Source of the DNA: Amphibalanus amphitrite
Lineage: Eukaryota; Arthropoda; Thecostraca; Balanomorpha; Balanidae
Direction: 5' to 3'
Assembly: GCF_019059575.1 (NCBI RefSeq)
Contig: NW_024882321.1
Location: 186,001 to 250,000, forward strand
Length of the DNA: 64,000 nucleotides
Under the pieces are notes generated by a model. The model saw only the letters and a program-made list of their open reading frames with translations, had not been told where the DNA came from and made no database searches. A program made the translations under genes and the position numbers. Each line of letters starts with the position of its first letter. The first letter of the stretch is position 1. This document shows, in pieces, positions 1 through 63,475 of this stretch.

Positions 1-255
1 CAGAATTAAGGTAGCTGTTCGAGGTAGCCGGCCTTACAGCTCTGACCCCTCCTCCCCCCCCCCCCCAATGACCCACGCCCGGCCCACTGACCGTGACCTG
101 TCCGAGGAAGCCGGCTGTTTCGCTATGACCCCGCCCCCCGTCCCCCTAGGCCCCTACTGACCGTGACCTGTCCGAGGTAGCCGGCCGTGCCGCTTACCCC
201 CCCCCCCCCGCCCACTGACCCCTACTGACCGTGACCTGGACAACCTGATACTGAC
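1..255 (-). repeat. Junction-derived tandem copies after UBA2 exon 3
   Basis: The exon 3/intron junction (plus-strand block ACTGACCGTGACCTGTCCGA followed by GGTAGCCGGC, genuine copy near 246-285) recurs near 157-196 and 87-125 and, shorter and more diverged, near 13-45. The copies are separated by C-rich tracts. Each of the two better copies carries the last ~25 exon bases plus a potential donor. Confidence 0.8.
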
Positions 256-2327
256 CGTGACCTGTCCGAGGTAGCCGGCCGTACCGCTCTCCACCAGCGG
301 CACCTGCGCCGCCAGACACATCCGGTTCACGTGGTTCCGAGCCGCCCGGTTATCCAGCGCGTTCAGCACCAGCGTGAAGCCCTTGAAGAAGTTGACGCCG
401 TACTCCTGACTGGCGGGGAGAAAATAGCATCATTTGCATAGGGTGCACTAAACGAATAGAAGGCCACAACCGACACCTGTCATCAAGTCGTCAAGGAAAA
501 GTAAAGCAGAAGAGCAGTAAAAAGTGTATTTAAACTGTTTTAGTTTTAAACAGTGAACTTGAGTTCTTTTTCAGGTTTATATTCATGAGTTATGTGCCAT
601 TTAGTGTTCTCATTTTGATAACAGATGCATTGCAGACCACAGTCAGAGGACTGCAACACCACGCTAACCTCCACCACCCGACTGGAAAAAATGCACGCTT
701 TCGTCGAGAACTCGAGCGTAGTTGGGCGTTTGCGCCGAAAATTTTCGGCGTACTTCGGCGTAACTCGACGGCGTGCGCCGAAATTTTCGGCGTACTTCGG
801 CGTAAATCGCGAAAAAAAAACGTCCGGGGGGTGGCACCAACCCCCCTTCGGCCGGCGAGGGTTAAATGTCTTCGGGAGTTAAACATATTAAATATCACTT
901 ATCTTGTCTCGTGTTCGTCTCAGGGTATTTAAGTCATGTTCAGTGAACCTGATTGCGACTCTCCCACGGCGGGAACAGTTCACCGGTCCAGAGTGAGGTT
1001 ATGGATTGTCGGATCCCCTAGTTCAGATAACGTATGCTATCGTGTGCGTATTGACCGTTGTGATTCCTGTATTTCCGGCGTGTGGTTTGTGAGCGGACGC
1101 TGGCAATCGGTCCCGCGTGGCCTGGTATCTGCCCGATCCCATCGGCCGTGCTTGCACCATGCCCTGTTGTAGGCCCCGTCAGGCGTCAGTCACCGGCTGG
1201 GCACTACTGCTGATCAGAGCCGGGCAACAAAATAAAGGTTACGTTATGGAACATGCCAGTGAGTTTGTGAGTCAGGAGATTTTGTGATAGCGAACCCTGG
1301 TGCTCGGTCCCGCATGGCCTGCTGATGTCTTTTGTCTGCCCGATCCCGTCGACGGTGCCAACAACCGTCTGTAGACAGTAGTCACTGGAAGACAGTCACA
1401 CACACACGCCAGCCCCCCCCCCCTCGACGAAAAGTGCGTGGCTACAGCCTGCAGCCATCAGTAAGCCTTGAAAATTTTTGGCGCATCAAGCATGGCTTGG
1501 TAAAATAATTTCGGCGCATAAACCCTTGAGCCGAAATTTCAGCGCATCACCTCCGCCGAGAGCTTCAGCGTAGTGGAGGCATTTTTTCCAGTCGGGCTCC
1601 ACCATACCTCATGATGCTGTCATGGTGAGCCTTGAGGGTGACGGATGGGTTGAAGCCCAGAGCGGCCTCACAGGCCACCTTGGCCTTGGACTTGCCGACA
1701 TGCTGCCTTTGGAACAGAAACTGCCTGTTCAGGTTGCTCACGTCAATGGTGTCCAGATCAATCTGAAACAAAGTTTGAATGTGAATGGAGGAGTAAGTCA
1801 AGAAAATGGCTAAATAATGTCCTGGGTGGTGACTGGTGAAAACTGGAAATTGAAAGGTTGTGTCTGTGCCTCCCCCATACTGATCAATACATGATCAATA
1901 CATGATCAATAAAAATATACATACAATCAATAGATACATGATCAATGAAAACTGAACCAAGCCAAACTGGTAATCCACGGTCAAGTTCAGAGCTGTACCA
2001 CAATAGAGCCCACACATGACACAACTTAAAGAATAAAACCAGCGCCGTGCCACAGTGGAAGCAAATCCACACCACACCATGTACCAGCCGAGGGCAATCA
2101 CACTGACAGGACCTAGTCAAAATTATTTACATTGTCATGCCTTGCAATCTACGGTTATCTCAGTTAAGGCTATCAAGCACACTTACTACTTCAATATTTT
2201 TGAAACCTGAAAGAACCAGGTTCTTTAGAACTTCACAGCCGATTCCCCCAGCCCCAACTAGTAAAAGTTTTGCGTCGATGACAGACTTCTTCAAAGTGGA
2301 AGGTAAAATATCAGCAGGACCCTCCAT
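256..2327 (-). CDS. UBA2: UBA2 / SAE2, SUMO-activating enzyme subunit 2 (5' part, continues beyond window start)
   Basis: Catalytic subunit of the SUMO E1 heterodimer (with SAE1); it adenylates SUMO and passes it through a Cys thioester to UBC9. Three exons on the minus strand: 2187-2327, 1608-1762 and 256-409; their phases join exactly and give the first 150 residues. Seen: the start [10 protein letters not shown], the nucleotide-binding loop [18 protein letters not shown], then [25 protein letters not shown], and the exon 3 stretch [20 protein letters not shown] ending [10 protein letters not shown]. This follows the family closely. The catalytic Cys domain, ubiquitin-fold domain and C-terminus are outside the window. 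The end of exon 3 has two in-frame donors 6 bp apart; the GTCAGT one was chosen because it keeps VT as in the family. The intron after exon 3 holds copies of this junction (see repeat 1-255). Confidence 0.95.
700..815. repeat. GCGCCGAAA-word dispersed repeat, copy 1 (UBA2 intron 2)
   Basis: A GACTGGAAAAAATGC motif at about 680 is followed by three or four GCGCCGAAAATTTTCGGCG-type words. The same combination occurs at 1449-1600 (inverted) and 3060-3250. Probably a degenerate MITE family; no target duplication was found. Confidence 0.5.
1449..1600. repeat. GCGCCGAAA-word dispersed repeat, copy 2
   Basis: Contains TTTTTGGCGCATC, TTTCGGCGCAT, CCGAAATTTCAGCGCATC and ends with ATTTTTTCCAGTC, the inverse of the GACTGGAAAAAAT motif of the other copies. 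It abuts UBA2 exon 2 (donor at 1607). Confidence 0.5.
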
Positions 2328-3379
2328 AGTCGATAAAATTCTTCCAATTTCAGTTCTGTATTATACAACTTCAAGTCCTGCTATTTGTCACTTGTCGGTC
2401 CTTGTCCAGCAAAGATACACTCATGAGAGGGCATATACAAATCAAAAACACACAAAATCACAATCTATAATAGGCGAACGGCGTATCCTATGCATTCAGC
2501 CACCGGCACAGAAACACGACAATCAATCGAATGATAAATATGAAACTAATTAAGAATAAATACAGATAAATGACGTCATGAGTATGACTAATCGGCTTTA
2601 CGTGTTCCTGTAAAGTCGCTAGTGAAGATCGCTAGTATGCAATAGTGTCTGAAAAGTAAATTTGTTTCTGTGACGTCATCACTTAATATTTTGATACTTA
2701 TTTGATGTGAAAATTTGTAATTGCCGGTGCGGCAAATCCAGTGCGCCGTAAACGTAGTTTGAGAGAAACCACGTTGTGAGGGTACTGCCGTATTTATTTT
2801 ATATTTTACCGGTTTTAATACTTAGTAGATACTAGATAGTCATGTAGAAATATGTTCTTTATGTTACGATCTTTCAGACCAGTTGATTTTTGTATTAAGA
2901 TTGGCAAGTCCGGACAAATTCCAACCCAAGGCAAATTCTTCACCACCACTGCTACTGTGTCCCCTCCTAGCTCAGTCCCCTCAGTCATTTCCTTTCACCT
3001 TCAATTTGCTTTGTTCTGTTTAATGCCGCCATATCTTGCAAGAGAAGAGCACTAGACTGAATAGAACTAAGGCCAGACTGGAAAAAATACTCTTATGTCG
3101 AATATCGCTGATGTGTCCAGCGACCAGCATAGTGGCGGGATTGCACCTAGTGGCGGGATTGCGCCGAAAATTTAACCGTTCTCCGGCGTAACTTCACATA
3201 CACTGAATTCAGCGCATGACATTGGCTGAAGTTTTCGGCGCAGGGGCCAGGGCAGTAGCAGATTTTTAATGCAAAAGACGGTCTCCAAATTTAGTTGGCA
3301 CGCTGGTCAATTTAGCAGCAGATTTGCCCTGTGAGCGGCTGTGAAGAGCTTTCAGGGCGAGACGTCCCCGCCCTACCCG

Positions 3380-4016
3380 CGGTCATCACGTGCTCGAACT
3401 GGCGAGCCACCCTGATCAGTATACTCAGTGGAGGAGTGGCCGCCCAGGTGAGGCTTCAACCCTTGGCATGGAGATAGTTATGGAAGACCTTGTTGAACAT
3501 CGCCGAGCGTCGTTAAGTAATACCGCAGTGGGTTCCTGCCCACTACGGTATCGAGGGGAATGAGAGCGTGGACGACCTCGGACCTGGCGAAACGAGCGGC
3601 CGCACTCAAATGCCCGCTCGCTGACCAGGGCGGTTCATGGTGCGGCCTCGCATCAAGGCGCGACAACTGGTCTGAGTTACTATCTAAACCACTCCTCGGG
3701 AGCACGCCGCCGCTCCCTATCCCCGGAGAGGACCGAAAGGACGCCGTTTCGGTGCACCAGATGAGGGCGGGCCACTGGGGCTGCTCGCTCCAGTACGTGC
3801 ACCGAATCGGCTGTCTCCACTCCGCGGCGTGCCAGCAGTGCCCACACAAGCGGTGTCGCGCGGTGCTCTGCGCCGTGTGCCGAGAAGAGGCTGATGTCGT
3901 TGCCAGCCTCGAACACTGGGCCGGTTCCGTAGCTCAGTCGGTAGAGCGTTGAGCTCCGCGTGGTGAGAGCACGCGTTCCCGGTTATAACAGTCCGGGTTC
4001 GAACCGCGACGGGCGC
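3380..4016 (+). repeat. Dispersed repeat with tRNA-like 3' part (SINE-like)
   Basis: At 3922-4016 there is a pol III box A (TAGCTCAGTCGGTAGAGC, 3930-3947) and box B (GGTTCGAACC, 3996-4005), but spacing and stems do not make a clean tRNA, so a tRNA-derived SINE or tRNA pseudogene is likeliest. Upstream, TATGGAAGACCTTGTTGAAC (about 3479) and the next ~100 bp match 36327-36440 at moderate identity, so that part is repetitive too. An ORF across 3560-3952 has a Cys-rich stretch but no recognisable family. Confidence 0.45.
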
Positions 4017-4188
4017 GACTCCTGACAGCCTGACAGGTATAGTTGCAGTTGGTGGCAGGCCGTAGTAGCCAGGCGAGTACCTATCGGTAAAGTAACAAGA
4101 AGTGTTGGGAGATTTTAAAAAGTCTTGTGATATCAGACATCAAAATTACGAAGATGTTTTGTCATAACATACCTTCTTCCAAACAATA

Positions 4189-5510: not shown

Positions 5511-8500
5511 AGCTGGTAAGTGGTAAGGTGCCTCCACAGCCAATAGGCATGTCATTTTTGTTTGAAGTTGAGCATGGAAGGCAGTGGTTCCAATATGATG
5601 ACACCGTCCAAACGTATCTGCAGGAGGGGCCACAAGGTGAGCAGGAGCGGGTTTAAATGTCAAACTTTCCGCCATTTCCTTGTATGCTAAATGGGATCGT
5701 TCAAGATTTTTCTGATCTTACACCTAACTGTGACGAGCCACTAGTGCTGGGGAACTGCTGCTCATCTGTCCCATTGTGTCTGACTTTCTTTCCTTTGAGC
5801 TCTAGTTTCAAAATTTTACTCACTGCCGGAGATTTCGCGATCGGACTATGGACTGCACCAGTAGATTTCTCTTGGATTTGACGCTGCTTGTTGGGCGTTA
5901 TTTGGTATAGCGATTGAAATCTGAACTCGCTATTATTTCTTTTTCAGACGGTGGCACTACTGTGGCGCTGAAGTTGAACGATACGGATGTGACGGTAAAC
6001 TTTGAGGAAATGACGCAGGCCAGCTCGGCGGCCAAAAAGCCCACCAGGATCCGATGCGTGAAAACTGGTGGCACAGGTTTGTAACAAAAAATATTTAAAA
6101 AAAAAACTTGTAATGCGTCGTAAAGTGTAGGTACTTGAATTGGACCTGGACGGTGAAGACAAGTGATCGCAGATAGCGAGAGTTTGGACCAGCGGAGCAA
6201 TGTTTTTGCTTAATTTTCCACCTTAGTGTATAGACTTATCCAGGCGCGGATACAAGGGGGGGCCATGGGGGCCATGTCCCCCCCCTTGGCCGATTTTTGA
6301 TTTTTTTTTCAAAAATAAAATAAAAAGTTAAAAAGCTGAAAAGGGGGCCTCCTGAAAATAAAGTGGCCGAAATCCGATGAGTTTTTTTTTTAACCTACCC
6401 ACTTAGTTATTTCTCGTTCGTTCATTTATTTCATAATTCGTTTATTCATGTTGAGATGTTGCCTGAACAGCTAGATAAGCTCAATAGACGCAGTTTTTTT
6501 TTTTTGGGGGGGGGGGCCCAACAAGTGGGAAGATGGGGCCTCCAACAGGTGGGATTATGGGGGCCTCCTGGTTTCTAATGGCCCCTCCCTTGGAGATTTT
6601 CTGGATCCGCCCCTGGACTTATCACAAGACGGTAAAGGTAAATATAACATCGAATATGGAAAAACATTCTAGATAAAACTTTCTTAGGCCTTAAAAATCG
6701 ACTTACTGCATAAGTTTGACGACAGGTGAATGGCGAGCATATCATGCATTCATATTAATGGATTTGATTTATCGTTTATCCAGGCAGCTTCAGTTGGAGC
6801 ATCAAGGAGGGCAAGAAGGAGACGTATCTGCCCATGTCCATCATTGAGCTGCTGGAGGACGCGCTGGCGAAGAAGAAGGCCAAGTTCGTGCGACAGGGGG
6901 TCACCTACGACCTGAAGAACATGGCTCGGAAGAAGAAGGGCGACGTCGATATGGAACTGGTGCGGGTCACCTGCTCTGGCAAGGCGTACGACGCCAAGCA
7001 CAAGCCGGTGGCGGGCCTGAAGCCTGCTGATGCTGCGGGTGACGCCCAGAACGGCGCTGGAAATGCCAAGAACGACGCTGGAAATGCCAAGGATGCCGGC
7101 GATACCGCCAAGAAGGACGCCCCTGCCAAGAAAGGCAGCAAGAGGAAGAACGCCGCCGCGGCAGCCGCTGACGGTAAGGATAGTGTTTTTCTGTATTCGT
7201 TGCGGTAAAGTTTCAGCGATTTCGGCTTAGTTCGCAACGTTTCAGTAAAGGGTCATTTTGCTGGTTCTAGCGTATCCGCGCGCAAGCACATGCACTGTGT
7301 GGATATGCTCAATCAATCACCACAATTGACTTATTTATGGCGGATCGCGGTGACGAGTGGGACGACGGAGGTGCTGTAAGCCGGTGCTCGGACGATATCT
7401 TACCGCTGTGCCGCTATGTTCTCCGTGACGATGTAGTTATGGACGCCAACAATCACCGCAATCCTGGCACCCTGAACCCCCCAATCACCACCGCGGCGAC
7501 GTCTTCTCCACGACGACATCTTTCCATGACGATTTCTGACGCGCTCTGTCTGGTGACGTCTCTGTCTCTGTCTGGTGACTATGTCTGAGATGCTCCGTCG
7601 ACGTCTCCCCAGCCGACGCCGACGCCGGGCCTCAGATGAAGTCAGTGGTGCTGAAGGGCCGCGCGCCCGTCGACACCGAGTGTCCCGTGGCGGCCGCCAA
7701 CCACGTCTACTGCGAGGGCGACGACGTCTGGGACTGCATGCTGAACCAGACCAACATCGGCAACAACAACAACAAGTACTACCTGATCCAGCTGCTGGAG
7801 AAGGACGGCAGCGGCTCCTACAGCGTCTGGATGCGCTGGGGCCGCGTCGGCTTCAAAGGCCAGAACAGCCTGACCACCTACGGAGCCAACCTGGAGGCCG
7901 CCAAACGCGTGTTCGCCTCCAAGTGAGTTGGACTTTTGGGATCATTTTGTGATAAGGGTCAAATTCTTGGTGTCCTAAAGGCGCAGTGATTAGCTTTTAT
8001 CGTCTTTGCCGTCATATGGGCGTTATCACAGTTGATTGATGCATTGCAAATTGCCGAGAGCGTAGTCAAAGCCTTTGCGATGATTATTTGCGGTAAACAT
8101 GATGCAATACGCCACTGTTACCCGTTGCTAAGCGTGGTCCTCCGTCTTTGAGTGGTGTCGATTTATCCACCATCGAGGCGCCTTGCGGGGACACTGGACG
8201 GGGCATGGGGTCGCAGAGACTCGTCGGCTGTATGACGACAAATTATTGCGCTCTTAGCTCTTCGCTCAGGTTAATCCGATCGTAGATTTGTCGGATCTAA
8301 TAACCAAATAGCGATGGGTTCATCTTAGCATGGGTAACGTTATTAGTGAAATAGTAGATGGTTGAGACCGCGCTGTTTCTCCACAGGCTGCGGAATCTGA
8401 CAGTATCGTTTGTTTTCAGGTTCCAAGACAAGACTAAAAATGCGTGGCGGAACAGGGCCGACTTTGTAAAGGTTCCAGGGAAGTACGATCTGCTGAAAAT

Positions 8501-11500
8501 GGATTACGCCGAGGATGAACCCGACGCCAAGAAACTCAAAACCGAGGCCGAAAAGAAGAAAAAGAAGGAAGTAAGTGGCCTCTTTAGTCTTTTTACCTTG
8601 TATAGCTCTGTGTAAAAAAAGAATTTCTTTAAATAAGAATTACTTAGTTGACAAACTTAAAACTTGACCAGCTATCGAATGAGTCACAATTAAGGAATTA
8701 ACAATGAACTAGTCGCAAAAATAAAATATATAACCTCGTGTGACGCCAGCCCACCGTGCATCCCCTCATCAGTAAATAATACTGTGGCGGCATATGGCGG
8801 TGACTTCAGTGGCAGAGACGTCTGACAAATTTATAGCTTCGAAAAGTCTGCGAGTGTTCCGGTTCATTCAATTGTATCGCGTTACTAGGCGTTACTTATG
8901 CATCTTTGTGAATCGTCTGCGCTTCAATTTGCTTATAATCCTGATTACAGTTAATGATTCTTGCCTTTAAATTAGCTCTATTAACTGGTATTAACCTGAA
9001 AATGTAATGTTTTTTTTAGATCGCTCCGTGCTCGCTGGAGAAGAAGGTGCAGGACCTGATCGAGCTGATCTGCAACGTCAAGGCCATGGAGGAGGCCGTG
9101 ATGGAGATGCAGTATGACGCCAAGAAGGCGCCGCTGGGTGAGAATTCGTGCGCCGCAGAACTCTTCGACTCCAGTGTATGATGAGGTCGTGTGTTCGCAG
9201 TTGGTGTAGGAGTTGGCTTGGACATCAGATTTTTATGAAAAGGTTCAGTGGCAGGCCAGCAGGCATAAGCGTACCGTCAATTTGTCCAATCAGACCTTTT
9301 TCACCAACTGAAGGAATCCTACCAGTGAATTTTCGAATGATGCCGCTGGTTGTGACGCGTCCTTTCCGTGTTTTCCCCGGCCGCTGTCTTACTCTATCTC
9401 TGATTCCCTATCCACCCCAGGGAAGCTGACTGAGGATCAGATCAAGGCTGGGTACGAGGCGCTCAAAGAGATCGACGAACTCATCAAGGCCAACAAGACG
9501 GGCAGGGAGCTGGTGGACGCCTGCAGCGCCTTCTACACGCGCATCCCACACTGCTTCGGGTGAGCAGTCGGCACAGGATGTCTCAGAGGAGGGGTGCATA
9601 GGCACTCGTTGCTCGAAATCTCTAGTTTTTGATCGTTTTCATACGCACAGCATGGTCCCTCACGTACTCTGTCGACATGCGCTCCTCGATAACACCCAGG
9701 GCCGCGTTGTTTTACTCTCGATCTTCATAACCAACCATAGACCACTATATATTTATGTGTGGCTTATGTGGTCTATGTCATTGCCTATGCCTATTTCTTA
9801 ACTAAAACTCTGACGCCACCAGCTCCGCCGTGTGCCGTCGAACAGGATGCGTCCTCCGACCATCATCCGCACTGCGCACGAGGTGAAGCTGAAGCTGGAG
9901 CTGCTGGAGGCGCTGGGAGACATCCAGACGGCGCTGAAGCTGATCGGGGAGGAGGAGGAGTCGGGTGACGGCAAGGCGCGCCACCCGGCTGACTCTCAGT
10001 ACCACGCGCTCAATGTGGATATCAAACACCTGTCGCCCAGCGATCAGGTGTACAAGGTGCGTACCGGGTGGGGTACAAGGTGTACAAGGTTCCGGATGGG
10101 GTATAAGGACAGACATGTACAAGGTGCGTGTCGGGTTTGGCACAAGGTGCGTACAAGAAAAGTTGTGATAGGAATAGTTACGGAGCGAGCGAAGCGAGCG
10201 GAGTCTTACGTAGAATAACGGAAATTTCTGAGTATGAGCGGCCGGCCGGCCGGCCGGGCGGCCGGCCGTGCGGACGCTTTTGCGAGGCTTATATCTCAGC
10301 AACCACTTGACCGATTTACATGCGGTAATTTTTGTAGGGTAGCTTCATTCCTTCTACCAAGTATTGGACTATTCCCGATGCATGTGGGTGACCCCTTATG
10401 CACGTGCCACGTGCAAAACGAAGAGGTGTCAGTTTTGTAATTGTTGCAATATCTCGGTAACTACTTGGCCGATTGCGCTGAAAGTTGGTATGTAGGTAGG
10501 CACCCACTAGGCACTGCATATCCATGTGCCAGAGTTGGGGTGCTGCTGCACGTGCGCACGTGCAGGGGTCGTTTCCAGATCTCGAGAACGGCTGGACCGA
10601 TGGCGCTCAAAGTTGGTACACAGTTAGGGACCAGTTAGTAGGGTGCCGTGTACAAGTCAGTTGGGACCCATTTTGCACGTGCGCACGTGCAGGGTGCCGC
10701 TCCCAGATCTCGAGAACGGCTGGGCCGATTGTGCTCAAATTTGGCACATCGCTAGAAACCGGTCAGTAGGGTGCCGTGCACAAGTCAGTTGGAGGTACCC
10801 CCTCGAAATTTCGCACGTGCAAGACTCACCCCCTCGCTCGCTCCGTTAGTCGCCCCAAAAGGCGCTATACTGGTATTAGTGTCTTAAGTTATAGTGCACT
10901 GTAATTCCAGCTGCAACTACGGCTATGACGCACAGGCTGAGGACTGTGCGTTGCGTGGGGAGGGGCTCGCTAGGTCAACTTCCTCCCCTCGCCTTCCACC
11001 ACCAGGAAGGTTATGTGAAAGCACACTACCTAACATGGCTTTGAGATGTTTTCATTTTTCTGTCAAATGAGGCATTGTCCTACCTCGCAAACTGGGTTTA
11101 CGTACGACTCCTGCGCCATTTCCATCGTTGATCCTTGATTCACGAACTCCGATTTCTTCCTGGCCAGACGCTGGAGAAGTACCTGGAGACCACTCACGGT
11201 CACACGCACATGGGCTACGGCCTGAAGCTGCTGGACGCCTTCTCCGTCACCAAACGCTCAGAGGAGGAGCGCTTCGTCGACCACGGCAACCGCATGCTGC
11301 TGTGGCACGGCAGCCGGCTCACCAACTGGGCCGGCATCTTCGGCGCCGGACTGAAGATCGCCCCGCCCGAGGCGCCCTGCACCGGATACATGGTAAATAG
11401 GGGCGGAGGGGGGGGGGGCGTGATCCGTGAGGTGGCGTGGGTATGGCGCTTTGGCGAAATACGTGAATATATGCCTCATTTCGTTTCACTCACTCATTGA

Positions 11501-23124: not shown

Positions 23125-32174
<9,050 letters not shown>

Positions 32175-34920: not shown

Positions 34921-41529
<6,609 letters not shown>

Positions 41530-49300: not shown

Positions 49301-52300
49301 AAGACCACTGAGTAGAAGTCGGCCTTTTCTTGTGCCAGTTGCCGATCGGACTCTGCCAGATTCTGCAAACAGTACAGGCTGGGTTAAATAGTAGTTCAGA
49401 CTCCAGGCGGGTCTCCACCATTGTCTCTAAAGCAGTATGCATCTACCGATGATAAAATGAACATAAATGGAAACTAAGAAATTTTCAAATAAACCACTGC
49501 AGCATGAATAAGAAAATCATATAAATCGTTGAATGAAGAAGTCTATAAACTAACCATTTGGTATAACTCCAATCGGGTGCAAAAAATCACATCTGATCAT
49601 ACCATCTTTTCATATCAGGTCCAAGCCTCAAGGCGACGTCGTAGCTCTTGCATAATAGGTACCTACACAAATCACGACTTTACAGTCTACCTAATTCACC
49701 TTCCACTTCGCCCTCACTCACCGCCAGCACGTCTCCGAAGAACAGGGCGTAGACGGGGATGGCGCAGCCGCAGACTGCCGAGGCCAGCACTCCGAGCAGG
49801 ACGAACGGCCACTCGGGCCCGCTGAGACGGACCAGACGCCACATCGAAACGGCTGGGTACACGGGCTCGCCCTCGGCGGGGACCGCCACCTGAGGAAGGA
49901 GGAGGGGGGTTAGAGCAGACTAGAGACCGGCGGGTACACGGGCTCGCCCTCGGCGGGAACAGCCACCTGAGGAGAGGGGGGAGGGGGTTAGAGCAGAGAG
50001 ACGGCCGGGTACACGGGCTCGCCCTCGGCGGGAACAGCCACCTGAGGGAGGGGTGGTGGGGGGTTAGAGCAGAGAGACCGCTGGGTACACGGGCTCGCCC
50101 TCGGCGGGGACCGCCACCTGGGGGAGAGGGGGGAGGTTAGAACACAGACAGTGGGGTAGACTGAATGGCCTTTGAATGGTACGGCAGCTCCGGAAAGTGG
50201 CGCAATTGGAATAGAAAAGAATATAGAACGGTAAATACAAATAGAACGGTAAAACTGAGTGTAAGACAGATAAGTCTAGCCAGGGGTCAGAAACGGGTAA
50301 CGCTATCACCGATCACGTGAAAGCCAAGTTCCGTCACAAGAGCGCCCGTCCCTGACACTCTCCGGCGGGCCTCCTCTACCACCCTCCCCCTCTACCCTCC
50401 CCCTCTACTCACACTCCGTCTCCTCAGTGACCGTCTCCGGACGGAGCCATGGGCCCGTCCGAGTCACCCCCCCCCCTCCTCCCCTCTACTCACACTCCGT
50501 CTCCGCAGTGACCTCCTCCGCACTGAGCCGTGGGCCCGTCCGAGTCCAGTAGCGGCCACCTGGCCCACCACCTCTGCTAGACTGGCCGGCTGCTCGTCCT
50601 CGGCCGGCTCAGAACTGATGGAGACGGTGCGGCTGGCCGGCCGGCGGCGGCGGCGCGGCGGCTCCGGCGAGTAGCCGCCCCCGCCCCCGCCCCCGCCGCC
50701 GCCGCCGCCGCCCGGGGACCACACCGGGTCCACGCCGTCCGGTGGAGCTGAAAGAGGGGAGAATGAGAGAATAAACGTGAGGGATTTGAACGTTGAACGC
50801 GAATTGAGCGTGGTATATGAATGGAGTGGGCCCCAATTATGGCACGGCCATTTACGACTACGATGCCCGGCGTCAAGCGATTGCACACTTCAATACAAGT
50901 TCGATGGCCCGCAAGCAATGACAGGGAAACAAATCATTCGTGATCGAGAGCCGTAAACGACATTCAGTTCATTCAATTTCCATGCAACAACGAAATTAAA
51001 AAGCCAGTATTCAGGTCACACGACGCAAAAATACCGTTAATTGGCTGCAATAAGACGCATACGTAAAATGGACGTTTGCGATGAAGAAACCCTATTTGTA
51101 ACGATCGTAGTGAATCGTTTATAGCGTGAGTGGACAACTCACAGTTCAAAACTCACAACTCACAGCGAGTATTGAGGGTCAGTCACATCATCCCTCTCTA
51201 ACCTGTAGCGTCGTCGGCCAGGGCCTGCGCGCTGACCAGCCGGTGGTAGAGTCCCCGTCGGTCCATCAGCTGCTGGTGGGAGCCGCGCTCTGCCACCCGG
51301 CCCTCCCGCAGCACCACGATCGAGTCGGCGGCGCGCACCGTGGACAGGCGGTGCGCCACCACCAGCGTGGTGCGGCCCGAACGCTCCTGGGGGAACGGGG
51401 GATGTCAGACGGGACAAACACAGGACAATCAAAGGATAGACACATGGCCCTTAAAAGCCGGGGCTGGGCTAAGGTTACGAAAATTGCAATATGTTTTCTA
51501 TATGCATTCAAAAAAGGCACGCAACAGTTATATCAAAAGTATCTCACGCTAGTGCAATACATATCACAAGTCGTTCCCAGAAACACCGGTGTACCCACTG
51601 TCAGTTTCCCTCTCCAACAGCTACCTCCTATCCTCCCAATCTGATCTTCCTTCTCTACGCCCTCTCCCTACCCGCTACATCCGTAAACCTGTCCCCGCTC
51701 CCACCTCAGCCAGTGCGGTGAGCAGTCGCGCCTCTGTGGCCGTATCCAGTGCCGACGTGGCCTCATCCAGTAGCAGCACGGCCGGGTCGGCCAGCAGCGC
51801 GCGCGCCAGCGCCACCCTCTGGCGCTGGCCGCCCGACAGCTGGCCGCCGCGCCCGCCCACCGTCGTGTCCAGCCCGGCCGGCAGGGCGCTGATGAACGGC
51901 CACGCCTGGGCGGTGCGGGCCGCCCGCTCCAGCTCGGCCTCCGAACAGCCCGGACGGCCTGGGAGGCAGCGGGGAGCAGGCGGGAATGTGAGAGAAGGTG
52001 GACTTGGGATTTGGTGGGATATATACCCGACTAGACTACCCGAAGGGGAACATGTGAGCATAATGTGTCAAGATAAACCAAACAAAATGATAGTATCATA
52101 AATATTTCATAAAACGAACACTGAATATGCAGCTGGTCAATCGGCAAGCTATGCCCAACCTAGCCAATCATCAATCTGACCAAAGCACCCTCAAACAACT
52201 TATGTTGGCTATAATCTCCACTGATATTCATGCCTATCGTCCTGCCCCAGGACATGGTCCTCTACCTCCTTCACCCAGTCTGTCCGCTCACTGCGGACGT

Positions 52301-55300
52301 CCCGCTCACTGCAGGCGACCCGCCCTCTCACCGTATCTGATGTTCTCCCGGATGGAGACGGGGAACAGGACGGGCTCCTGGGACACGACGGCTAGCTGAC
52401 CGCGCAGCCACGAGACGCGCAGGTCACTGACCCGCCGACCGTCCAACAGAACCTAAATGTAAGGGGAGGGGGTCAGTGGGGATGACCGCGCAGCCACGAG
52501 ACGCGCAGGTCACTGACCCGCCGACCGTCCAACAGAACCTAAATGTAAGGGGGGGGGGGGAGGAGGGTTAGTGAGAGATGGTGGGAGACGAGAGCTGGGA
52601 AATTGGGGAGGTGGGAGAGGGAAGAGTGGACGTTGGTAAGCGAGAGACGGGGGACGCAGGTAAAGAAGACGTCCATGGAGATGAATAAGGAGACCGGGAA
52701 TGATGAGACAGCGAGAGAGGGAAGACTAGAGTCAGAAAAAGAGAGATAGGACTAGGAGACGGACGAGATGCGGAGATGCAACGATTGCAGAAAATAGAAT
52801 GACAGTTTATGTTCAATGATAATGCCGTGTCGTTAAATCGCGAACGAAACTGCATATCGAGTGACACACCTAAAACACAAAACAAAACTAGCATCGGTCA
52901 ACGATCAACACGCTTTCCTGCATGTGCTTTCCGTGGTTACCTGTCCGTGCTAGGGGTCGTACAGTCTCAGTCCTCACGTCCTGTCCGTGGCCAGGGTCGT
53001 ACAGTCTCAGCTGTCCGTGGCCGTACAGTCGTACAGTCTCACCTGTCCGTGGTCGGGGTTGTACAGTCTCTATCCTCACCTGTCCGTGGTCGGGGTCGTA
53101 CAGTCTCTATCCTCACCTGTCCGTGGCCGTACAGTCGTACAGTCTCACCTGTCCGTGGCCGTACAGTCTCTCTCCTCACCTGTCCGTGGTCGTACAGTCG
53201 TACAGTCTCACCTGCCCGTGGTCTGGGTCGTACAGTCTCACCTGTCCGTGATCGTACAGTCTCTATCCTCACCTGTCCGTGGTCGGGGTCGTACAGTCTC
53301 TGCAGCAGCTGAACACAGGTGGATTTGCCGCAGCCGGACGGCCCGACCAGCGCCACAGTCTGGCCGGCCGGGATGGTTAGATTCAGACTGTCCAACACCT
53401 GGGGGGGACGGGAGTTATAGTGTCAAACAGTGTATGATGCTGAGAATGTCTTTTTTATTTATCCATGTTTCCTGGGAGCAGATACGGGAGAGACGTTGGC
53501 GAAAAAAGACGATACTGCTGCATCCTGCACCAAAAGTCACAAATACCAACATCTTTGAGCTGACTATCAAGGCACAATGGCATGCCTGCGCAGCCGACCG
53601 AGTCAGGGATGACATGCAAAACTCCACTCATTCCGGACGGAAGTCGTGTAACCGGTCAAAACGACCAGTCACGTCCCGTAACGTCACTTGTATCATTGTC
53701 CAGCGTCACCACAGAACATTACCGTCCGTCACGACAGGATATAACTCCCCGCCATGACCGGCCAATAGTGACCAAGACCGTGGGAGTCCTGAGCAGCGCA
53801 CTGCACGACCTTTCCCTCACCAGTTCCACATCCACCAGCAAGAACACTAGCCAACCCACATCAGCTGACAGGCTGAAGCACCAGCCCAGAGACCCCAACA
53901 TACACACGTCAACAGTCGAGTCGACAAAGGACATACACCGCACGTAACCGACCTGACCTTCCCCGACCGATCCGTAAGCTTGGTCATCCCTGCTTACTAC
54001 TGACCTCTCCGAATCGATCAGTGATCACTGTCCTCTGTCATATCCACCGGGCTGCCCAGCCTCCCCACTCCCTCCCCTGCCCTCACCTGAACGTCCGGCC
54101 GGCTGGGGTAGCTAAAGCGCACGTCGCGGAACTCGAGTCTCCCGGCCACCGTCGGCGGCGTCTCACCCGACTCACCCAGAGGGTCAATCTGGGAGCGGCG
54201 CTCTGTCGACGGAGGGAGGCCGGGTCAGATATGGGTGATTGCTGGGTATTATAAGATGCTAGCAGGATGAACGATTGAAGAGTGTTATGTTGGTGCCTTT
54301 TATCAAAGCGTTCACGAGCTTCTGAGGGACGTTTCAAGAGTTTTACGAGTTCGCTTTATGAGTGCACAATGAGAGATGTACTAAAAATCGAGAACGAACA
54401 ATGTCTAAAAAGTTATTTAAGTGATCAGTACCCACAAACCACAAACTGGAAGGGTCAAATCGCAACAACTGACCGTCGTTTGGCCGTCTCATTAACTTCC
54501 AGCGACTAAGAACGACTGACCTATGACGGCGAATATGGAGGCGGCCGCGCCGCGCGCCTCGCTGAACGAGGAGAGGTGCAGCGCTGACTGTCCCAGCTGG
54601 ATGGCGCCCATCACCACACTGAAAAATACCTGCGGACGGGGACACCACGGGAGATGGACGTCAGAAACATCCTGATATCAGTCACACGGTCATAGCCGCT
54701 ACATTGGCCTCTTGGAAGGCACATATAGCAGATGCAGTAAATATAAAACGAAAACATAGCAGATCTCTGTTATTTCACAGCTCACATACTCGATGGCATG
54801 AAATAATCAAATATGTCGGCACTCGGCAGCGCTTGTCTCACGCCAGGACGTTTCAAATTATTCCTGCTCACTTGATCTGCAATGACTCGGCATCCGACAG
54901 TCAGCAGCAACAACTAATCAAAGTTAACTTATCCTGACTTCACCGGTACTCCAGAACCAGAACGGAGTCGTACAGTCGGCGTCGTGCCACGTACTCACTA
55001 TGGTCGACGGTCGTACCCAGTACTCACTAGTCACTATGGTCAGGGCGGGGTCGTATTACCTGGGCGGTGTCGTACAGTCGCTGTCGTACCCAGTACTCAT
55101 TATGGTCTGGGCGGGGTCGTATAACTCCCCATCCAGTACCATGGCAGTGTCGTACATGCGGTGTCATACTCAGCACTCACTATTGTCGTAATCGGTGTCC
55201 AGGGCCTCGTTTCATAAAGCGAGTCCGTAAATTACGCCGGTTTTTGGGCTTGTATTGCAAGCGCATGTAAAGCGATAAATTTATTTCCCCTTCTCTCTTC

Positions 55301-58300
55301 TGTTCTTGCTTGCAAGATAAATAAATTCAACGATTCAAACTATCGTCATCGCTTCACATGCACTTGCAACACAAGACCAAAAACCGGCGTAAGTTACGGA
55401 CTCGCTTTATGAAACGGAGCCCATTACTCACTATGGTCAGCGAGGCGGGGTCGTACTCCCCGTCCAGTATCAGGACCGTGTCGTACAGTCAGTGTCGTAC
55501 TCACTATTGTCAGCGACGCGGGGTCGTACTCCCCGTCCAGTATCAGGACCGTGCCGTACAGTCGGTGTCGTACTCACTATGGTCAGCGACGCGGGGTCGT
55601 ACTCCCCGTCCAGTATCAGGGCCGTGCCGTACAGTCAGTGTCGTACTCACTATGGTCAGCGACGCGGGGTCGTACTCGCCGTCCAGTACCAGGGCCGTGC
55701 CGTACCAGAACGCCAGCGAGTAGCAGGCGAACACCACACACCAGGCCAGACCGGCACCGAGGCCCGTCAGCGCAGAGTTCAGCAGCCACCAGCGGCGGGC
55801 GGCCAGCAGACACCCAGAGTACCTACAGGTCACAGGTCACAGGTCATAGGTCAGAGGTCACACCAGCGGAGGGCGGCCAGCAGGCACCCAAAGTACCTAC
55901 AGGTCACAGGTCACAGGTCATAGGTCAGAGGTCACAGCCACCAGCGGCAGGCGGCCAGAAGACACCCAGAGTACCTACAGGTCACAGGTCACAGGTCACA
56001 GGTCATAGGTCAGAGGTCAGAGGTCACAGCCACCAGCGGCGGGCGGCCAGAAGACACCCAGAGTACCTACAGGTCACAGGTCACAGGTCAGAGGTCACAC
56101 CAGCGGCGCGCGGCCAGCAGACACCCAGAGTACCTACGGGGCACAGGTCACAGATCATAGGTCAGAGGTCACAGCCACCAGCGGCGGGCGGCCAGCAGAC
56201 ACCCAGAGTACCTGCAGGTCACAGGTCAAAGGTCAGGTCACAGAGGTTAGAGCCACCAGCGGCGGGCGGCCAGCAGACAACCAGAGTACCTACAGGTCCG
56301 AAATCAAAGGACAGAGATTACATGCAAGACATAACAATCCAATATGTCGACCACTGACCACATTAGCACTTCCACTGTTATCTCACCATTCCACGTATCT
56401 AGTCCTCCGTCATTCCTCACCTGTCCACCTCCTTTTGCTGTCCACCGAAGGCCACCACTGTGCGGATGGCCGATATGATCTCGGCGGCCACGTCTCCCGC
56501 TCGGCTGTAGCCGGCCGTCGCCCGCTGCATCAGCGTCGACTGGGCCTGGACGGTAAAACAGGGGGAGGGGGTCACATCGGGTTAGGGAGGGGGTGGGTTG
56601 GTAAGCTGGTGAGTGGATGGGCGGATGACGAAAAAAATGAGACAAACTGATAGTTGTTGAGGTTTTTATCAGCACGTTTTATACAACGATATAATTATGC
56701 AGTCTTTTCGTCGTTTCCTATCGCTCATATTAGGTTATAACTCTCAGCCGCCGTTGAGTTATCTTGTATCTCAGCATTTCAACTCACGATCGCTTTTACG
56801 ATCAAGTTGAGGTAAAATTCACGTTAATTTTAGTTCGTATGTATATAATCGATTCGCATGTTATAAAACATGAATAGCGGTTTACGCAACTGAATCGCTA
56901 ACCAAACAGCGGCAACATCCACTGCCGATTTCACATCACTACAACTGCTTACCCCAATCTCAAATACATGTCAGCCCAGCGACACCTATTCCCCACATGC
57001 CGTCCGTACCTTTGCGATGGCGGCCAGTATGGCCACCAGGACGGGTACGGCCGTCAGGATGACCAGCGTCAGCCTCCAGCCGTGGTAGAAGGCGTTACAC
57101 ATCGAGATGACGAACACCGACACCATGAACACAAAGATGCCCAGCTTGTCGTCAATGCCCGCCTGCACCTTGGCCAGGTCTCTGTCGGAAGGACGGAGGA
57201 GGGGTCGTTCGTTAGGACAGACCAGTGGAGCAAGTTGTAACTCGATCATGATCATGTTGTTGGCACTTAGCTGCATGAAGCATTATAAGGGTTGTTACTG
57301 TTAGCAATGTTACTCAACATTCAGCACACCAACTTGTTGCTAATTTCTACGACTATCATGCAAACTTATGTGTCACATCACACTAAAATTGATCCTTAAA
57401 AATCAAACTTTTTATGGAAGGCATTGTCCAAAGTTCTAGAGACTGTACAAATTGAACGATACGATTTCCGCCACCGACTGGGTCATCTGCACTCACTCTG
57501 TAGCCCTGGTGGCGAAGTCTCCGGCGCCGTTAGTCTCGAACCAGCTGATCTCCTGTCTCAGTACTGCCTGCAGGAACAGCCCTCGGATCCGCTTCACCTG
57601 AGGATGGGCGGACGGAATTGGTCAAGGGCGGAGCGGGGACGGGTCGGAGACAGTATCGAAGGACTGTCAGCGACCCTAAGTGCATTATCACGCATTGAAA
57701 GAACGACAGCCCGTCATCACACAGCTTTCTAGCATAACACGGGCTCTGGCGCCAACTGGTGAATGCCACTTAAATCTATTCAGATTTGCGTGACTTCTAT
57801 CTATAGCTCCACTGATCTTGCTAACCAATTCAATTGCATAGCCACGTGAAGCAGAATGACAAGACACAGGCATCTAACGCTGAATAAACTTATTGACACC
57901 ACCACCCTCCATCGACTTACTTGTCTGGCCGACGAAAAGTCCAGGCAGAACACGAACAGGGCCCCGAAGGTCGCCTGTAATGAGCCGGCCACGCAGCTGC
58001 CGACCAGAAACACCCACACGTGCTGGGAGAACGTCTCCGGCGCGGCGCCGTCCGGCACCAGCAGCTCCAGCGGACGGGACCTGGCCGGCCAGGCAGTCAG
58101 TCAGATACGGTGGGAGGGTCAGAGCGAAATCGGGTAGGGGAAGCGAGTGGGTCAGATACACACTCTGATACAGACGAATGGGTTAGGGTGATTAAAAAAC
58201 ACAGAAAAAAATGATAAACGAATCGGGTATGAACGCACTTTAGACGAAACCGAACGGCTCTCCAGTCTCCAAGGACACGACTGACGACGAGCATTGAGCT

Positions 58301-59358: not shown

Positions 59359-60816
59359 TTTGACAAGCCAAAGCGGTGCCTTTTGCTCTACGATCCAATA
59401 CCAGGCACCTTATTCATTCAAAGAATAAGGACCTGTAACAAAAACAAATAGTAGTAGTGCCACTTTAAACATCAAGGAAGAAATGTTATTTAAAACACAC
59501 TAAGACTCAGTGGGTAGAGTTAGACCATACTGATACAAATCCATGTCTCCCAACTCCCAAGTCCCAAGCTCAGCAGCAAAACCGTTCAACCGCGCCATAA
59601 CAATAATCAATATTCAGTCAAAGGTTTACTACTCACAGCATTGGTTCATCACGACCTTGGCAGTGTGGGTGATATTGGGCAATCACCACAATATCTTCCC
59701 ATGGTGTTTCAGAGCGAGACACATTCACCTCATCCCTTGAGCATGCCTTCTAAAACTGGCACACGAACCCGTTATGTTTACGAAATTAGAAAGTTTTAAC
59801 TGTCCCAGCTGCGCTGAAAGTGCCGCAAAATACAATGCTTTATTTCTCAATAAAGCAAATATGTAAATTGACCGTTATTAATGGCAAATTTTGATTTCAA
59901 AATAGTAAATGGAATAATTAAAGTTAATTGAATGAATATGTGATGAAAGTCAAAACAGTGTTTGCAAAATCAGTAGAAAAGATAAAGAAAAATGAATTAT
60001 TTATAAACTTGGGAACGCTTCTGCTAGCTGGCTTATGACCTTGAAACTTTCGAAATGTGTATGTTTGGCAAGATTACTTTACTATGTTTGGTAATGGTTG
60101 GTAAAATTAGTTATATTTGTGTTTTATTTAGTCAGGGGTCGAGTCAGGGTGCATGGTCTTCAATGGCTGTGGGCTGCCAATCGCCATAATACTTTGATTG
60201 GAACTTTGCTCTTTCCTTGTTGCACGAAATTTTAATAATACGGAGACTGAGACTAGCATCCAAACTCAAATTGTGGAATCTTATTTGCATAGAAATAAAC
60301 TTATTTGGATATTTCATATTCGTAACGCCAGACTTTAATTTGAATTAATAAATCTAAACGGATCGGATTCCCTCAGATCCGTTCAGCGTTCATATAGTTT
60401 TGATTATCTGAATTGTGCGATCGATCTGCATAAAGACTTGTTGGACTAGACTAGCACTTCCTGATGATCTGATCCTGGATCCTGTTCCTGCGTGCGGCAC
60501 GGAGCAATTCAGTTGGATTCAGTGGAATTGTTGCCGGTGTCTCATTGGCCGTGTCTCATGTTCGAGGTGGAGCCGAGAGGGGGGGGGGAGCGGGGGAGAG
60601 CTGGCGCGTGAAGGGATAGCGAGCGTTGGTTGCGTTGGACTAGTGGTTCGCAATAAATTTTCATTACTATTTGAAATTATGATCCAAAATAATTTAAGTG
60701 TTACAGTGAGGCTCGTTGCGTTGCAGAGGGAACCTGAATGAATATCACTTTTCAGGTTACGGGTGACATAGTGGTGCAGTTTTCAGCCGCTACCCACATC
60801 AGCACAGCGCGCACAG
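59359..60816. other. Head-to-head spacer of ABCB (-) and C18orf63 homologue (+)
   Basis: About 1.46 kb of AT-rich sequence expected to hold both promoters. No ORF of known type and no repeat shared with the rest of the window. The C18orf63 side becomes GC-rich from about 60540, including a G-run at 60580-60590. Confidence 0.5.
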
Positions 60817-63424
60817 ATGCCGGGCGGTCAGCAGTGCGTGCCGGTGCAGTTTTTCGCCGGCAGTCCGCGGCTACATAACCTGACCGCGCTGCTGGTCCTA
60901 TTCGAGAAGCCGGGAGACGAGGCACCGGGCAAACAGGTGCTCAGGTGTAGGTAGGGAGTAGGGACGGCTCGGGGCTCGGGCAGCGACGGTCTGCGGCTCC
61001 GCGCTCGGTTTGTGTGCTGGGCAGTAGTCGGAGGGTAGTCGGGGTCAGTAGCTATACGTATATGTAGACTTGTAGAGTGTAGACCCTTGTTTTACGCGTT
61101 ATTCAATTTCCAAATGCAGTATTGTGTGTACGTTTGAGCGTTTATAATGACTGTTCCGTCCGGTGTACGAAGCATTTTGTGAAGTTCCTGGCCGAGCGTT
61201 GCGTTTCCCTCTATTCAATTCAGTGTAGCTTGCAAAGCACTGGATGCATATGCTAGTAAAGTAATATTGGATGCCTATGCGGAGTAATGGCTTGTCATTG
61301 TCGCGATGGAATGCCCAATTATATTTAATGTCGTCACTTACTAGATCCACGTCCCTCCCATTGCTATACAAATGACACACCCGCCCTTGTCAGTGTGGCT
61401 AAATTCATTTTGCGTTAGGGGGAGGATGTAGAAAAGAACCTGTAGAGGATGTCATTGTTTTCACAAAACTTGACTATCATGGCATTTTAGGTGCTGTTTT
61501 TACAGGTATAACTAGAAAAAGATGTAGTCGTAGATAGAAATATTAAACACCGATAAAACTTTAAAAGCTTTCTGATGTTTGGGAATCGGGATGATAAAGA
61601 CGAACTGTTAAAGTCTGGTCATATATTTGAACATTTTGGCTCAGATCATTGTTGTTTTAAGTCGTAAAGATGTTATTATTTATATTTTAGGATGTCATTT
61701 TACTTTTGATTATGGGTGAATTTCCCCGCAACATTACAATTTTGGACATACTGGCCCCTGTCGTTCCCAGGGAGCTGATTTTCCGGTGCCCGGTGGTGCT
61801 GGCCTCTCCCTCGGACGATGCAGAGGCGGTTCTGGTGGTGGTGCCGCGCGCGTTCAGCCTGTTCCCGACGCTGGCAGAGATGAGGGCCAGGGTAGGCGCG
61901 GCTGTATGTTTGTCTCGTATCAGTGGATACTGAGATGGTATCGCATTTGTCTCAGTATCTGTGTTATCTCAATACCTAGTCTGCGAGGTTCTGGTTAGCT
62001 AATATGAAGCCGTCACTGGCAGTCCTAACGGTACACGGGTCCAGTTCTGTTTATTGTTCTCATTCGGTTTTTTGCTTATAGGTGGATCGCTTTAACCAAA
62101 TAACTTGATGCATCTAACATAACACGATTTGAAAAAGCGACATCAGTTGAATGTACTTGCATATGCAAGTCAAATTATGTACGTCTTTATGATGCATATT
62201 GTATGCTGCTGTCTAGCCAAGTTTCATAAATGTTTCATTCATCTGCAGTTTTACGTTCTTGACCCTCTATCCCATTCCCAGCACATTGTCCCTGATGCCG
62301 TCGGACCACCACTGACGGCGCCGGGCGCCGTGTGTGTCTGTGTTCTGCAGGTGCTGGGTGAGCGGCCGGCCGGGCCGGACGACTTTGCCTGCTGCCTGCG
62401 GTACACACTGCAGGCCAAGCTGGCGCCCCAGTGGAACGTGGTCGGTGAGCTGCTGCTGCAGGGACGCGACTTCCTCCAGGTCACCGGGCCCGTCAACGGG
62501 GTGCGGCTGCAGGTCAATGTCACAGGTCAGTGGCAGGTCACAGGTCACCGCCATAGGTCATTGTCACAGATCAGCTGTGGCAGGTTGCAGGTCACTGCCA
62601 TAGGTCAGCGGCATGTCACAGGTCAGATCAGGTCACAGCTCAACGGCAGGTCATAGGTCAAAGCTCACCATAGGCCATATCTACATGGCTATTCATTCAT
62701 CACTCATATTTCGACGCTGACAGTCACTTGTGGATTATGGAACACGTGCCAGATACTCCCTGTCGGCACGGGTCGCTCCTGGGCTAACCCTGCACTAATA
62801 CCCGCACTGATGACGGTCGTACCATCACGGTTCACTGCATATAGCCGTCAGTTGACACATGCAACTGTCCAGGAGATTTACCGTCAACATACGTTATACG
62901 TAATCCGTTACCTATTAGTCACTTCTCCGATGACGTTTTATTTTAGCTCTGTTACATTACTTTGCATCGAAGAAACTGTCCCCGCAGTTTTACCTTTATT
63001 GTTCCTCTCGAAATCGTTCAAGTCTCGAAAACCTTCACCGAAACTAATCGGCAAGCCCCCCCCCCCTTCCACCTCCCTGCCGCCACCCTAACCGTTTCAC
63101 TCTGCTCCGTAACCCGCGTCCTGCAAAACTCAACCCCTCTCCTCTTCCCCGTCCCTCAGAGGAGGACGTGTGTCTGAGCGCCCAGGCGTGTGTGGTGCGC
63201 CTGCCGCCGCTGCGGCTCTAACGCTCCCCTCCCCTCTCCTCCCGCATACATTCCTCAGAGGAGGACGTGTGTCTGAGCGCCCAGGCGTGTGTGGTGCGCC
63301 TGCCGCCGCTGCGCCTCTCCGATCTCGGGGCCTCACCGGTGGCGCTGGTCGACTTCAACGCCCGCCTTACTGACGTCATCAGCGAGAGTCAGCTGACCGG
63401 CCGCTGGTGTCACATCCTGCCCAG
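60817..63424 (+). CDS. C18orf63 homologue (DUF4708 protein), 5' part, continues beyond window end
   Basis: Function unknown; the vertebrate C18orf63 proteins share a DUF4708 domain. Four exons: 60817-60944, 61771-61891, 62351-62525, 63259-63424; phases join and give 196 complete codons, then two bases of the next. Seen: MPGGQQCVPVQFFAGSPRLH, then RELIFRCPVVLASPSDD, then YTLQAKLAPQWNVVGELLLQ with GRDFLQ, and EEDVCLSAQACVVRLPPLRL, ending GRWCHILPR. The LAP.WN...L..GRDFL and VCLS..AC..RLPP patterns with the WC..LP end match the human protein as recalled, in the same order and spacing. Exon 1 uses a weak donor (GTGTAG), chosen by phase. The rest of the gene is beyond 64000. Confidence 0.8.
62526..62670 (+). 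repeat. Donor-edge copies after C18orf63 exon 3
   Basis: The junction GTCACAG/GTCAGTGGCAG (62519-62536) is followed by CACAGGTCACCGCCATAGGT, CACAGATCAGCTGTGGCAGG, GCAGGTCACTGCCATAGGTC, GTCACAGGTCAGATCAGG and similar, about eight AGGTCA-type units. Confidence 0.75.
63150..63222 (+). repeat. Copy of C18orf63 exon 4 acceptor edge
   Basis: CCTCAGAGGAGGACGTGTGT, CTGAGCGCCCAGGCGTGTGT, GGTGCGCCTGCCGCCGCTGC at 63155-63216 duplicates the genuine acceptor and first ~57 exon bases (63253-63314) almost exactly; it then diverges into a C-rich tract. Confidence 0.95.
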
Positions 63425-63439
63425 GTGAGGGGGGGGGGG

Positions 63440-63475
63440 GAGACTACTGGTGCCACATCCTGCCCAGGTGAGGGG
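63440..63475 (+). repeat. Copy of C18orf63 exon 4 donor edge
   Basis: CTGGTGCCACATCCTGCCCA plus GGTGAGG (63447-63473) repeats the genuine exon end and donor (63402-63428) after a G-run, giving a second perfect donor 45 bp downstream. Confidence 0.92.

Follow-up and report, generated by a model that had tools for sequence, protein, structure and literature searches.

How does an intron come to hold repeated copies of its own splice junction? The question is raised by a stretch of 64,000 nucleotides from the barnacle Amphibalanus amphitrite (assembly GCF_019059575.1, 807.6 Mb in 2,644 contigs; contig NW_024882321.1, here C824, positions 186001–250000), hereafter the window. An original prediction, made from the letters alone, had claimed that about 17 exon–intron junctions in six unrelated genes are flanked by tandem arrays whose unit is the junction itself. 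Here, we report a computational analysis of these arrays. The tandem copies are real, and the description that suits them best is that of minisatellites anchored at junctions, polymorphic and set in a very diverse genome. The least expected part of the findings is that the intronic copies carry a coding imprint.

Junction arrays in the window

We modelled eight spliced genes with 132 splice junctions: UBA2, UBE2G2-like, PARP2-like (hereafter PARP), CLPTM1L, a Cdc42/Rac-like GTPase, ECI2, ABCB and C18orf63-like, some of these names being presumptive. Domain matches support UBA2 (ThiF), UBE2G2-like (UQ_con) and C18orf63-like (DUF4708). The CLPTM1L model is 100% identical over 550 amino acids to a RefSeq A. 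amphitrite protein; a PDB search with it gave no match. The ABCB model agrees exon by exon with A. amphitrite protein P0001, save for residues that are repeated in P0001. Its A. amphitrite matches are annotated on two contigs, 328,052 and 560,451 bases long, and a Pollicipes protein (P0003) matches it at 80%. An allelic copy of the window region is available on contig C927, the second haplotype (haplotig).

Local repeats were sought as 24-mers with at least 20 of 24 positions identical at offsets of 15–600 bases, which gave 37 clusters, 15 of them flagged as crossing a junction, ECI2 among them. After inspection, a junction array was counted if its repeat unit holds at least 6 exon bases together with the splice site. 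Copies of this kind lie in their own intron at 16 of the 132 junctions, 10 donors (UBA2 exon 3; PARP exon 8; CLPTM1L exon 4; ABCB exons 8, 11, 15, 19 and 25; C18orf63 exons 3 and 4) and 6 acceptors (CLPTM1L exon 3; ABCB exons 8, 12, 16 and 24; C18orf63 exon 4). ABCB accounts for 9 of its 50 junctions, C18orf63 for 3 of 7, CLPTM1L for 2 of 19, UBA2 for 1 of 5 and PARP for 1 of 23; ECI2 (0/13), UBE2G2 (0/8) and the GTPase (0/7) have none. The 16 arrays and two edge cases are listed below by window coordinates and strand.

10–295 (−): UBA2 exon 3 donor array; about 33 exon nucleotides plus donor; three intronic copies, two in C927
10046–10140 (+): PARP exon 8 donor; weak 67-bp repeat with about 9 exon nucleotides, which alignment did not recover
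18960–19153 (+): CLPTM1L exon 3 acceptor array; unit of about 56 bp with 8 exon nucleotides; insertions of 6 and 19 bases in C927
19835–20010 (+): CLPTM1L exon 4 donor array; GGGCAG/GTCAGTGA units; longer in C927
21936–22309 (+): CLPTM1L exon 8 edge case; 204-bp unit in two copies, starting 22 nucleotides downstream of the donor
38524–39217 (+): ECI2 exon 2 donor edge case; 34-bp unit from the GT, split by an element at about 38545–39056
43890–44001 (−): ABCB exon 25 donor; one intronic copy with 43 exon nucleotides
44544–44931 (−): ABCB exon 24 acceptor array; 75-bp unit, four intronic copies; one unit fewer in C927
47768–48054 (−): ABCB exon 19 donor array; 101-bp unit, two intronic copies
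49842–50130 (−): ABCB exon 16 acceptor array; 76-bp unit, three intronic copies
50395–50549 (−): ABCB exon 15 donor; 81-bp unit, one intronic copy
52392–52562 (−): ABCB exon 12 acceptor; 86-bp unit, one intronic copy (98% in Tandem Repeats Finder, TRF)
52936–53305 (−): ABCB exon 11 donor array; six intronic copies
54962–55708 (−): ABCB exon 8 donor array; 73-bp unit, five intronic copies
55779–56306 (−): ABCB exon 8 acceptor array; unit of about 78 bp, six intronic copies
62505–62660 (+): C18orf63-like (DUF4708) exon 3 donor array; GGTCA-rich
63148–63313 (+): C18orf63-like exon 4 acceptor; 99-bp unit, one intronic copy; absent from C927
63399–63480 (+): C18orf63-like exon 4 donor; 43-bp unit, one intronic copy, poly-G joint; absent from C927

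At all but one of the 16 array junctions (15), local alignment finds a copy holding 6 or more exon bases; the exception is the weak PARP exon 8 array, whose approximately 9 exon bases were judged by eye. By alignment, arrays hold 1 to 6 intronic copies: eight of the 16 have at least two, seven have one and PARP exon 8 has none. With the exon included, the maximum is about 7, below the upper end of the predicted range of 2 to about 11 copies. The genes involved are five of the six named, since ECI2 drops out: its array begins at the donor GT, and alignment adds only 1 exon base. CLPTM1L exon 8 likewise shows no exon edge, its 204-bp repeat beginning 22 bases into the intron. These two arrays, which start at or near a donor without exon bases, are our edge cases. 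The ECI2 repeat is split by an element (38545–39056) with inverted termini, recognized by eye, that is inserted within it.

The units lie head to tail, in the size range of roughly 10–100 bp that marks minisatellites or variable-number tandem repeats. Each includes one junction only and none contains a whole exon (0/16). None of the 16 arrays has the form of an exon duplication or of mutually exclusive exons, in which the unit is a complete exon with both splice sites. Nor do they resemble intron gain, in which both intron ends come from two copies of one exonic segment; in all 16, the copies share one intron end only. The GT or AG dinucleotide is intact in 36 of 37 intronic copies, mildly above expectation (P = 0.02) in a local alignment that itself favours copies with an intact GT or AG.

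Dispersed relatives were sought with three queries that cover four arrays (the ABCB exon 8 donor, 55425–55705; the UBA2 exon 3 donor; the C18orf63 exon 4 acceptor and donor together), in a search that skips very common words and scores only the best candidates. Each matched only its own locus and the haplotig C927, and on this result from four arrays we reject a transposon or introner-like origin.

Variation between haplotypes

Fifteen of the listed arrays were compared between C824 and C927, that is, all except PARP exon 8, CLPTM1L exon 8 and C18orf63 exon 3. Six differ in length or presence (ABCB exon 24 acceptor, CLPTM1L exon 3 acceptor and exon 4 donor, UBA2 exon 3 donor, and C18orf63 exon 4 acceptor and donor), so that copy number differs between chromosomes as it does in variable-number tandem repeats. 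At ABCB exon 24, the C927 array is shorter by exactly one 75-bp unit, and a G of a run is missing as well; the 454 aligned bases contain 0 mismatches. At C18orf63 exon 4, acceptor and donor are both single-copy in C927. In CLPTM1L, C927 has a much longer array at exon 4 and insertions in the one at exon 3; intron 4 of this gene is barely alignable between the haplotypes. For UBA2, the intronic copies number three in the window but two in C927, and their sequences differ.

Coding imprint on the intronic copies

An idle intronic copy should not carry a synonymous bias, yet these copies do. In 14 aligned arrays, differences between copy and exon number 12, 28 and 55 at codon positions 1, 2 and 3, and the excess at position 3 persists within CpG sites, other GC sites and AT sites taken separately. 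Among 76 unique changes, 49 are synonymous, 26 nonsynonymous and one creates a stop, against 28% synonymous expected at random (P = 4 × 10^−11, for changes that are not fully independent of one another). The bias is also present among changes found in a single intronic copy only (12 arrays), of which 27 are synonymous and 11 nonsynonymous (P = 4 × 10^−8, with the same caveat). The imprint is uneven: the changes are nearly all synonymous at ABCB exons 15, 16, 19 and 24, but not at UBA2 or ABCB exon 11.

The alleles of the exons themselves provide a yardstick. Across six CLPTM1L exons, the two haplotypes differ at 4, 2 and 26 sites at codon positions 1, 2 and 3 (27 synonymous, 5 nonsynonymous changes), and the third-position rate in the copies (55/496) does not differ from that between alleles (26/304; P = 0.28). 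A congeneric barnacle is reported to have a diversity of about 20% at fourfold sites (PMC8270832). The predominance of synonymous changes suggests that the copies descend from sequence recently under coding selection, namely exon edges of other alleles or other times. On the simplest reading, the copies would have come from, or exchanged with, the exon edges of other alleles and then undergone some neutral change.

The three intronic copies closest to the ABCB exon 8 donor edge (55429–55631) encode ...LILDGEYD, like Pollicipes P0003, and the exon reads ...LVLDGEYD. These copies may preserve an older codon.

Possible enrichment at splice junctions

A preference for junctions was assessed with the 18 non-transposon arrays in gene bodies of the window with a unit of at least 30 (the 16 junction arrays and the two edge cases). 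Four intron clusters were set aside as transposons (UBA2 676–1595, PARP 10170–10880, CLPTM1L 17430–18425 and ECI2 38545–39056), by eye, from terminal inverted repeats and dispersed matches. Under a null model that places units at random without swallowing an exon, 4.3 arrays with at least 6 exon bases are expected and 16 of 18 are observed (P = 4 × 10^−9); for at least 15 exon bases, the figures are 3.7 and 12 of 18 (P = 1.7 × 10^−5). These P values are optimistic, the window having been chosen for the pattern, and the unit lengths and exon shares behind them were entered by hand from TRF and repeat-scan output. Shorter-unit arrays lie outside the test, for example 11818–11865 (unit 20), 52284–52325 (unit 18) and other short-unit TRF arrays; some of them sit within introns (for example 6511–6565 and 31972–32025).

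By anchor frequency alone, junctions are not more repeated than intron interiors: a nearby copy is found for 12 of 132 junction anchors and 132 of 1,445 intron-interior anchors, both 9%, and for 5 of 417 exon-interior anchors. All 132 repeated intron-interior anchors belong to the 18 listed arrays, 109 to junction arrays and 23 to the edge cases.

For the rest of the genome, a blind sample of 21 stretches of 10 kb (210 kb), placed regardless of genes, contains 101 repeat clusters covering 16.8 kb, 83 of them with a median offset of at least 30. The A. amphitrite genome is rich in minisatellites. Junctions in these stretches were predicted with a gene finder that in its first run called 275 junctions in the window and found 114 of the 132 true ones; with a strand filter and an exon score of at least 15, it placed at least one edge correctly in 45 of 46 internal exons, the window serving for both training and testing. 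At that score, the blind sample, in which little is recognizably genic, keeps 23 exons, and six edges were flagged inside clusters; among the flagged edges inspected, only one donor (L021) is clean and another edge (L008) is weak. The L021 exon is one that we take to be DPP-like. One stretch (L010) contains 2,500 bases of N alongside dense repeats, and in another (L013) the gene-finder output resembles a retrotransposon polyprotein.

A second, genic sample was drawn up through a Pfam search for ABC-transporter and myosin exons, whose surroundings gave 19 stretches totalling 44 kb. Here, 3 of 122 predicted junctions carry arrays, a count made at a laxer exon score of 6 and with only part of the exons overlapping the Pfam places. 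One is at an ABC acceptor and includes few exon bases (L038); the other two belong to a single myosin gene (L045), one at a donor and the other at an acceptor. The pattern thus recurs in other genes but is rarer there, and a genome-wide excess is unproven.

Origin of the arrays

We lean, with little more than even confidence, towards the view that the arrays are young, length-polymorphic minisatellites, seeded by short tandem duplication across a splice junction and reworked by exchange and conversion, whose copies are functionless. In a first step, a template switch during replication or repair, or an unequal exchange, would duplicate approximately 30–120 bp. A unit with a single junction would be nearly neutral, the exon-adjacent copy giving the normal mRNA, and duplications within an exon or of a whole exon would be purged. 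Selection on one-junction units would explain the lack of whole exons, not an excess over introns. Unequal exchange and conversion among the copies, including those of other alleles in so polymorphic a species, would then expand, shrink and reshuffle the array; in the process, it could swap sequence with the exon edge, so that each copy would be a snapshot of another allele or time. Any excess over intron interiors might arise because exons are conserved islands at which diverged alleles can pair, a putative step, and intron ends that are rich in GC and in G or C runs possibly help.

Several observations weigh against this account. Outside the window, array junctions are significantly rarer (3/122 against 16/132, P = 0.0036), so the window may be extreme, and six pairs of the 19 genic stretches align at 85–95%, as haplotypes or paralogues, which makes the 122 junctions partly redundant. 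Three of four arrays there with a unit of at least 30 are at junctions, only P = 0.08, with approximate placement probabilities and leaving out an exon-to-exon repeat (L035). In the copies, changes at codon positions 1 and 2 are more frequent than between alleles (40/992 against 6/607, P = 0.0003), indicating that part of the divergence postdates the copies becoming intronic. A pure snapshot model, with frozen copies and a drifting exon, is only mildly rejected (47/76 changes fall at the third position, where the model allows at most one half, P = 0.025; for changes private to one copy, P = 0.007), and no match was found between intronic-copy variants and the exon alleles sampled. The 154-nucleotide UBA2 exon is identical in both haplotypes though their arrays differ. 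Eight ABCB arrays and the ECI2 array, nine of the 15 in the comparison, show no unit difference; they have at most an indel of 2 bases and one mismatch and sit in near-identical haplotype stretches. A unit may have been gained in one haplotype or lost in the other, because contraction would restore the single-copy state. The sequence context counts for the account, with reservations. Array junctions are richer in GC at their edges (intron side, 0.64 against 0.51), and a run of at least 5 (G after a donor or C before an acceptor) occurs in the adjoining 60 intron bases at 10 of 16 of them against 18 of 116 others (P = 1.4 × 10^−4), but this flank includes the arrays themselves. At the C18orf63 exon 4 donor, the unduplicated allele in C927 has four G and the duplicated allele twelve; the run may be a product of the duplication, not its cause.

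A more ambitious version, possible but to our minds doubtful, casts the intronic array as a reservoir of copies from many alleles, with which exon ends would be repeatedly rewritten by conversion while selection removes nonsynonymous versions. Should the array pattern itself be general, highly polymorphic genomes would have exon ends that are active in recombination, and a single genome would suffice to read, in its introns, a fossil record of exon alleles. The birth and loss of duplicated splice sites, a proposed raw material for alternative splicing and intron gain, could then be watched directly.

Of the competing explanations, the one that survives best, although we hold it to be unlikely, is that there is no junction bias at all: minisatellites would arise everywhere, those at junctions being tolerated like intronic ones, and the window would be a chance extreme picked out by its reader. 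The dense clusters of the blind sample, the scarcity of junction arrays in the genic sample, the short-unit arrays lying inside introns and the selection of the window all fit this explanation. It does not account readily for the 16 of 18 longer-unit arrays where 4.3 are expected, for the confinement of all repeated intron-interior anchors to the listed arrays or, at its marginal P value, for the three of four arrays elsewhere.

The prediction had also proposed a duplication process targeted to junctions. In this form, which we think rather improbable, G or C runs or structures formed in transcription would stall replication, and break repair with template switching would duplicate the junction directly. 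The concentration of longer-unit arrays at junctions in the window and the three of four elsewhere go some way towards it, the latter short of significance. So do the association with G or C runs, the poly-G at the joint of the C18orf63 donor duplication and a report of a C. elegans helicase that prevents tandem duplications (PMC8654963). It is undercut by the six of 16 array junctions that have no run of at least 5, by the short run in the unduplicated C18orf63 allele and by the make-up of the flank that was scored.

Selection for spare or regulatory splice sites, or splicing of the copies as extra mini-exons, we regard as very unlikely. The near-universal GT or AG and the coding-constrained look of the copies are what it would lead one to expect, and there are annotated proteins to match. 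P0001 has 18 extra residues, most of which match the ABCB exon 12 intronic copy at 52485–52529, and A. amphitrite P0002, from another contig (560,451 bases), carries additional residues in shorter runs at ABCB exons 12 and 24. However, several units are not multiples of 3 (101, 76, 86, 73 and 43 bp), so splicing of outer copies would shift the frame; the upstream C18orf63 acceptor copy, read by eye, runs into a stop; arrays come and go between haplotypes; and Pollicipes P0003 is without the extra residues. From sequence, we found no sign that the copies are needed. The extra residues in P0001 and P0002 are taken as annotation led astray, occasional splicing being conceivable; arrays of this kind could make automated annotation add repeated residues to proteins.

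A further proposal, that exon edges are the slowly diverging remnant of old repeats, finds no support: at ABCB exon 24, the two haplotypes are identical but for one exact unit, and blindly sampled genomic DNA abounds in repeats (101 clusters across 210 kb). An assembly artefact is scarcely credible: the extra ABCB exon 24 unit is in only one of two contigs, but the copies differ from one another in sequence, repeated residues at ABCB exons 12 and 24 recur in a protein from another A. amphitrite contig, and arrays are present at other loci.

Relation to known repeats and introns

Hypervariable minisatellites differ between haplotypes by whole units and have internal variants, and the barnacle arrays share both properties. 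Unlike minisatellites in general, the barnacle unit includes a working exon edge, so that one copy is under coding selection and the others bear its imprint. Zhuo et al. in 2007 are said to have described human introns from tandem arrays; the likeness lies in splice sites inside tandem arrays, the difference in that the human cases are alternatively spliced new introns within exonic arrays.

The statement in the original prediction that no named phenomenon matches was too strong. De Grassi and Ciccarelli (2009, PMC2812944) describe variable tandem repeats at exon–intron boundaries of human paralogues and name unequal crossing-over and slippage. As in the barnacle, these repeats cross exon–intron boundaries and vary between gene copies. 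The human repeats lie within segmental duplicates of recent origin, where new introns or altered exons can result from them, whereas the barnacle arrays differ between alleles and occupy introns that already exist, with no change to the predicted mRNA. Tandem genomic duplication as a route to intron gain, the subject of a review (PMC3443670), likewise involves a splice-site duplication that is tolerated because the extra part is spliced out. The barnacle arrays depart from it in creating no new intron, in having one existing junction per unit and in intron ends that are not mutual copies. Among the best-ranked matches in the open PMC literature, we found no paper on exon-edge copies in barnacle introns.

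Other features of the window

The UBA2 intron element (676–1595) has terminal inverted repeats, seen by eye. The CLPTM1L intron element (17438–18421) is dispersed and is absent from C927, which makes it a polymorphic insertion; its relatives lie at 10178–10878, at 32413–33093 and on other contigs. An intronless carbonic anhydrase gene (28348–29609, −; PF00194, E = 4 × 10^−49) is antisense inside the large Cdc42/Rac-like intron, and a tRNA-Arg(CCG) lies within an ABCB intron (49161–49235, −). A dispersed repeat at 3920–4076, tRNA-like by eye, has an 86% match on another contig (C1, stretch L006).

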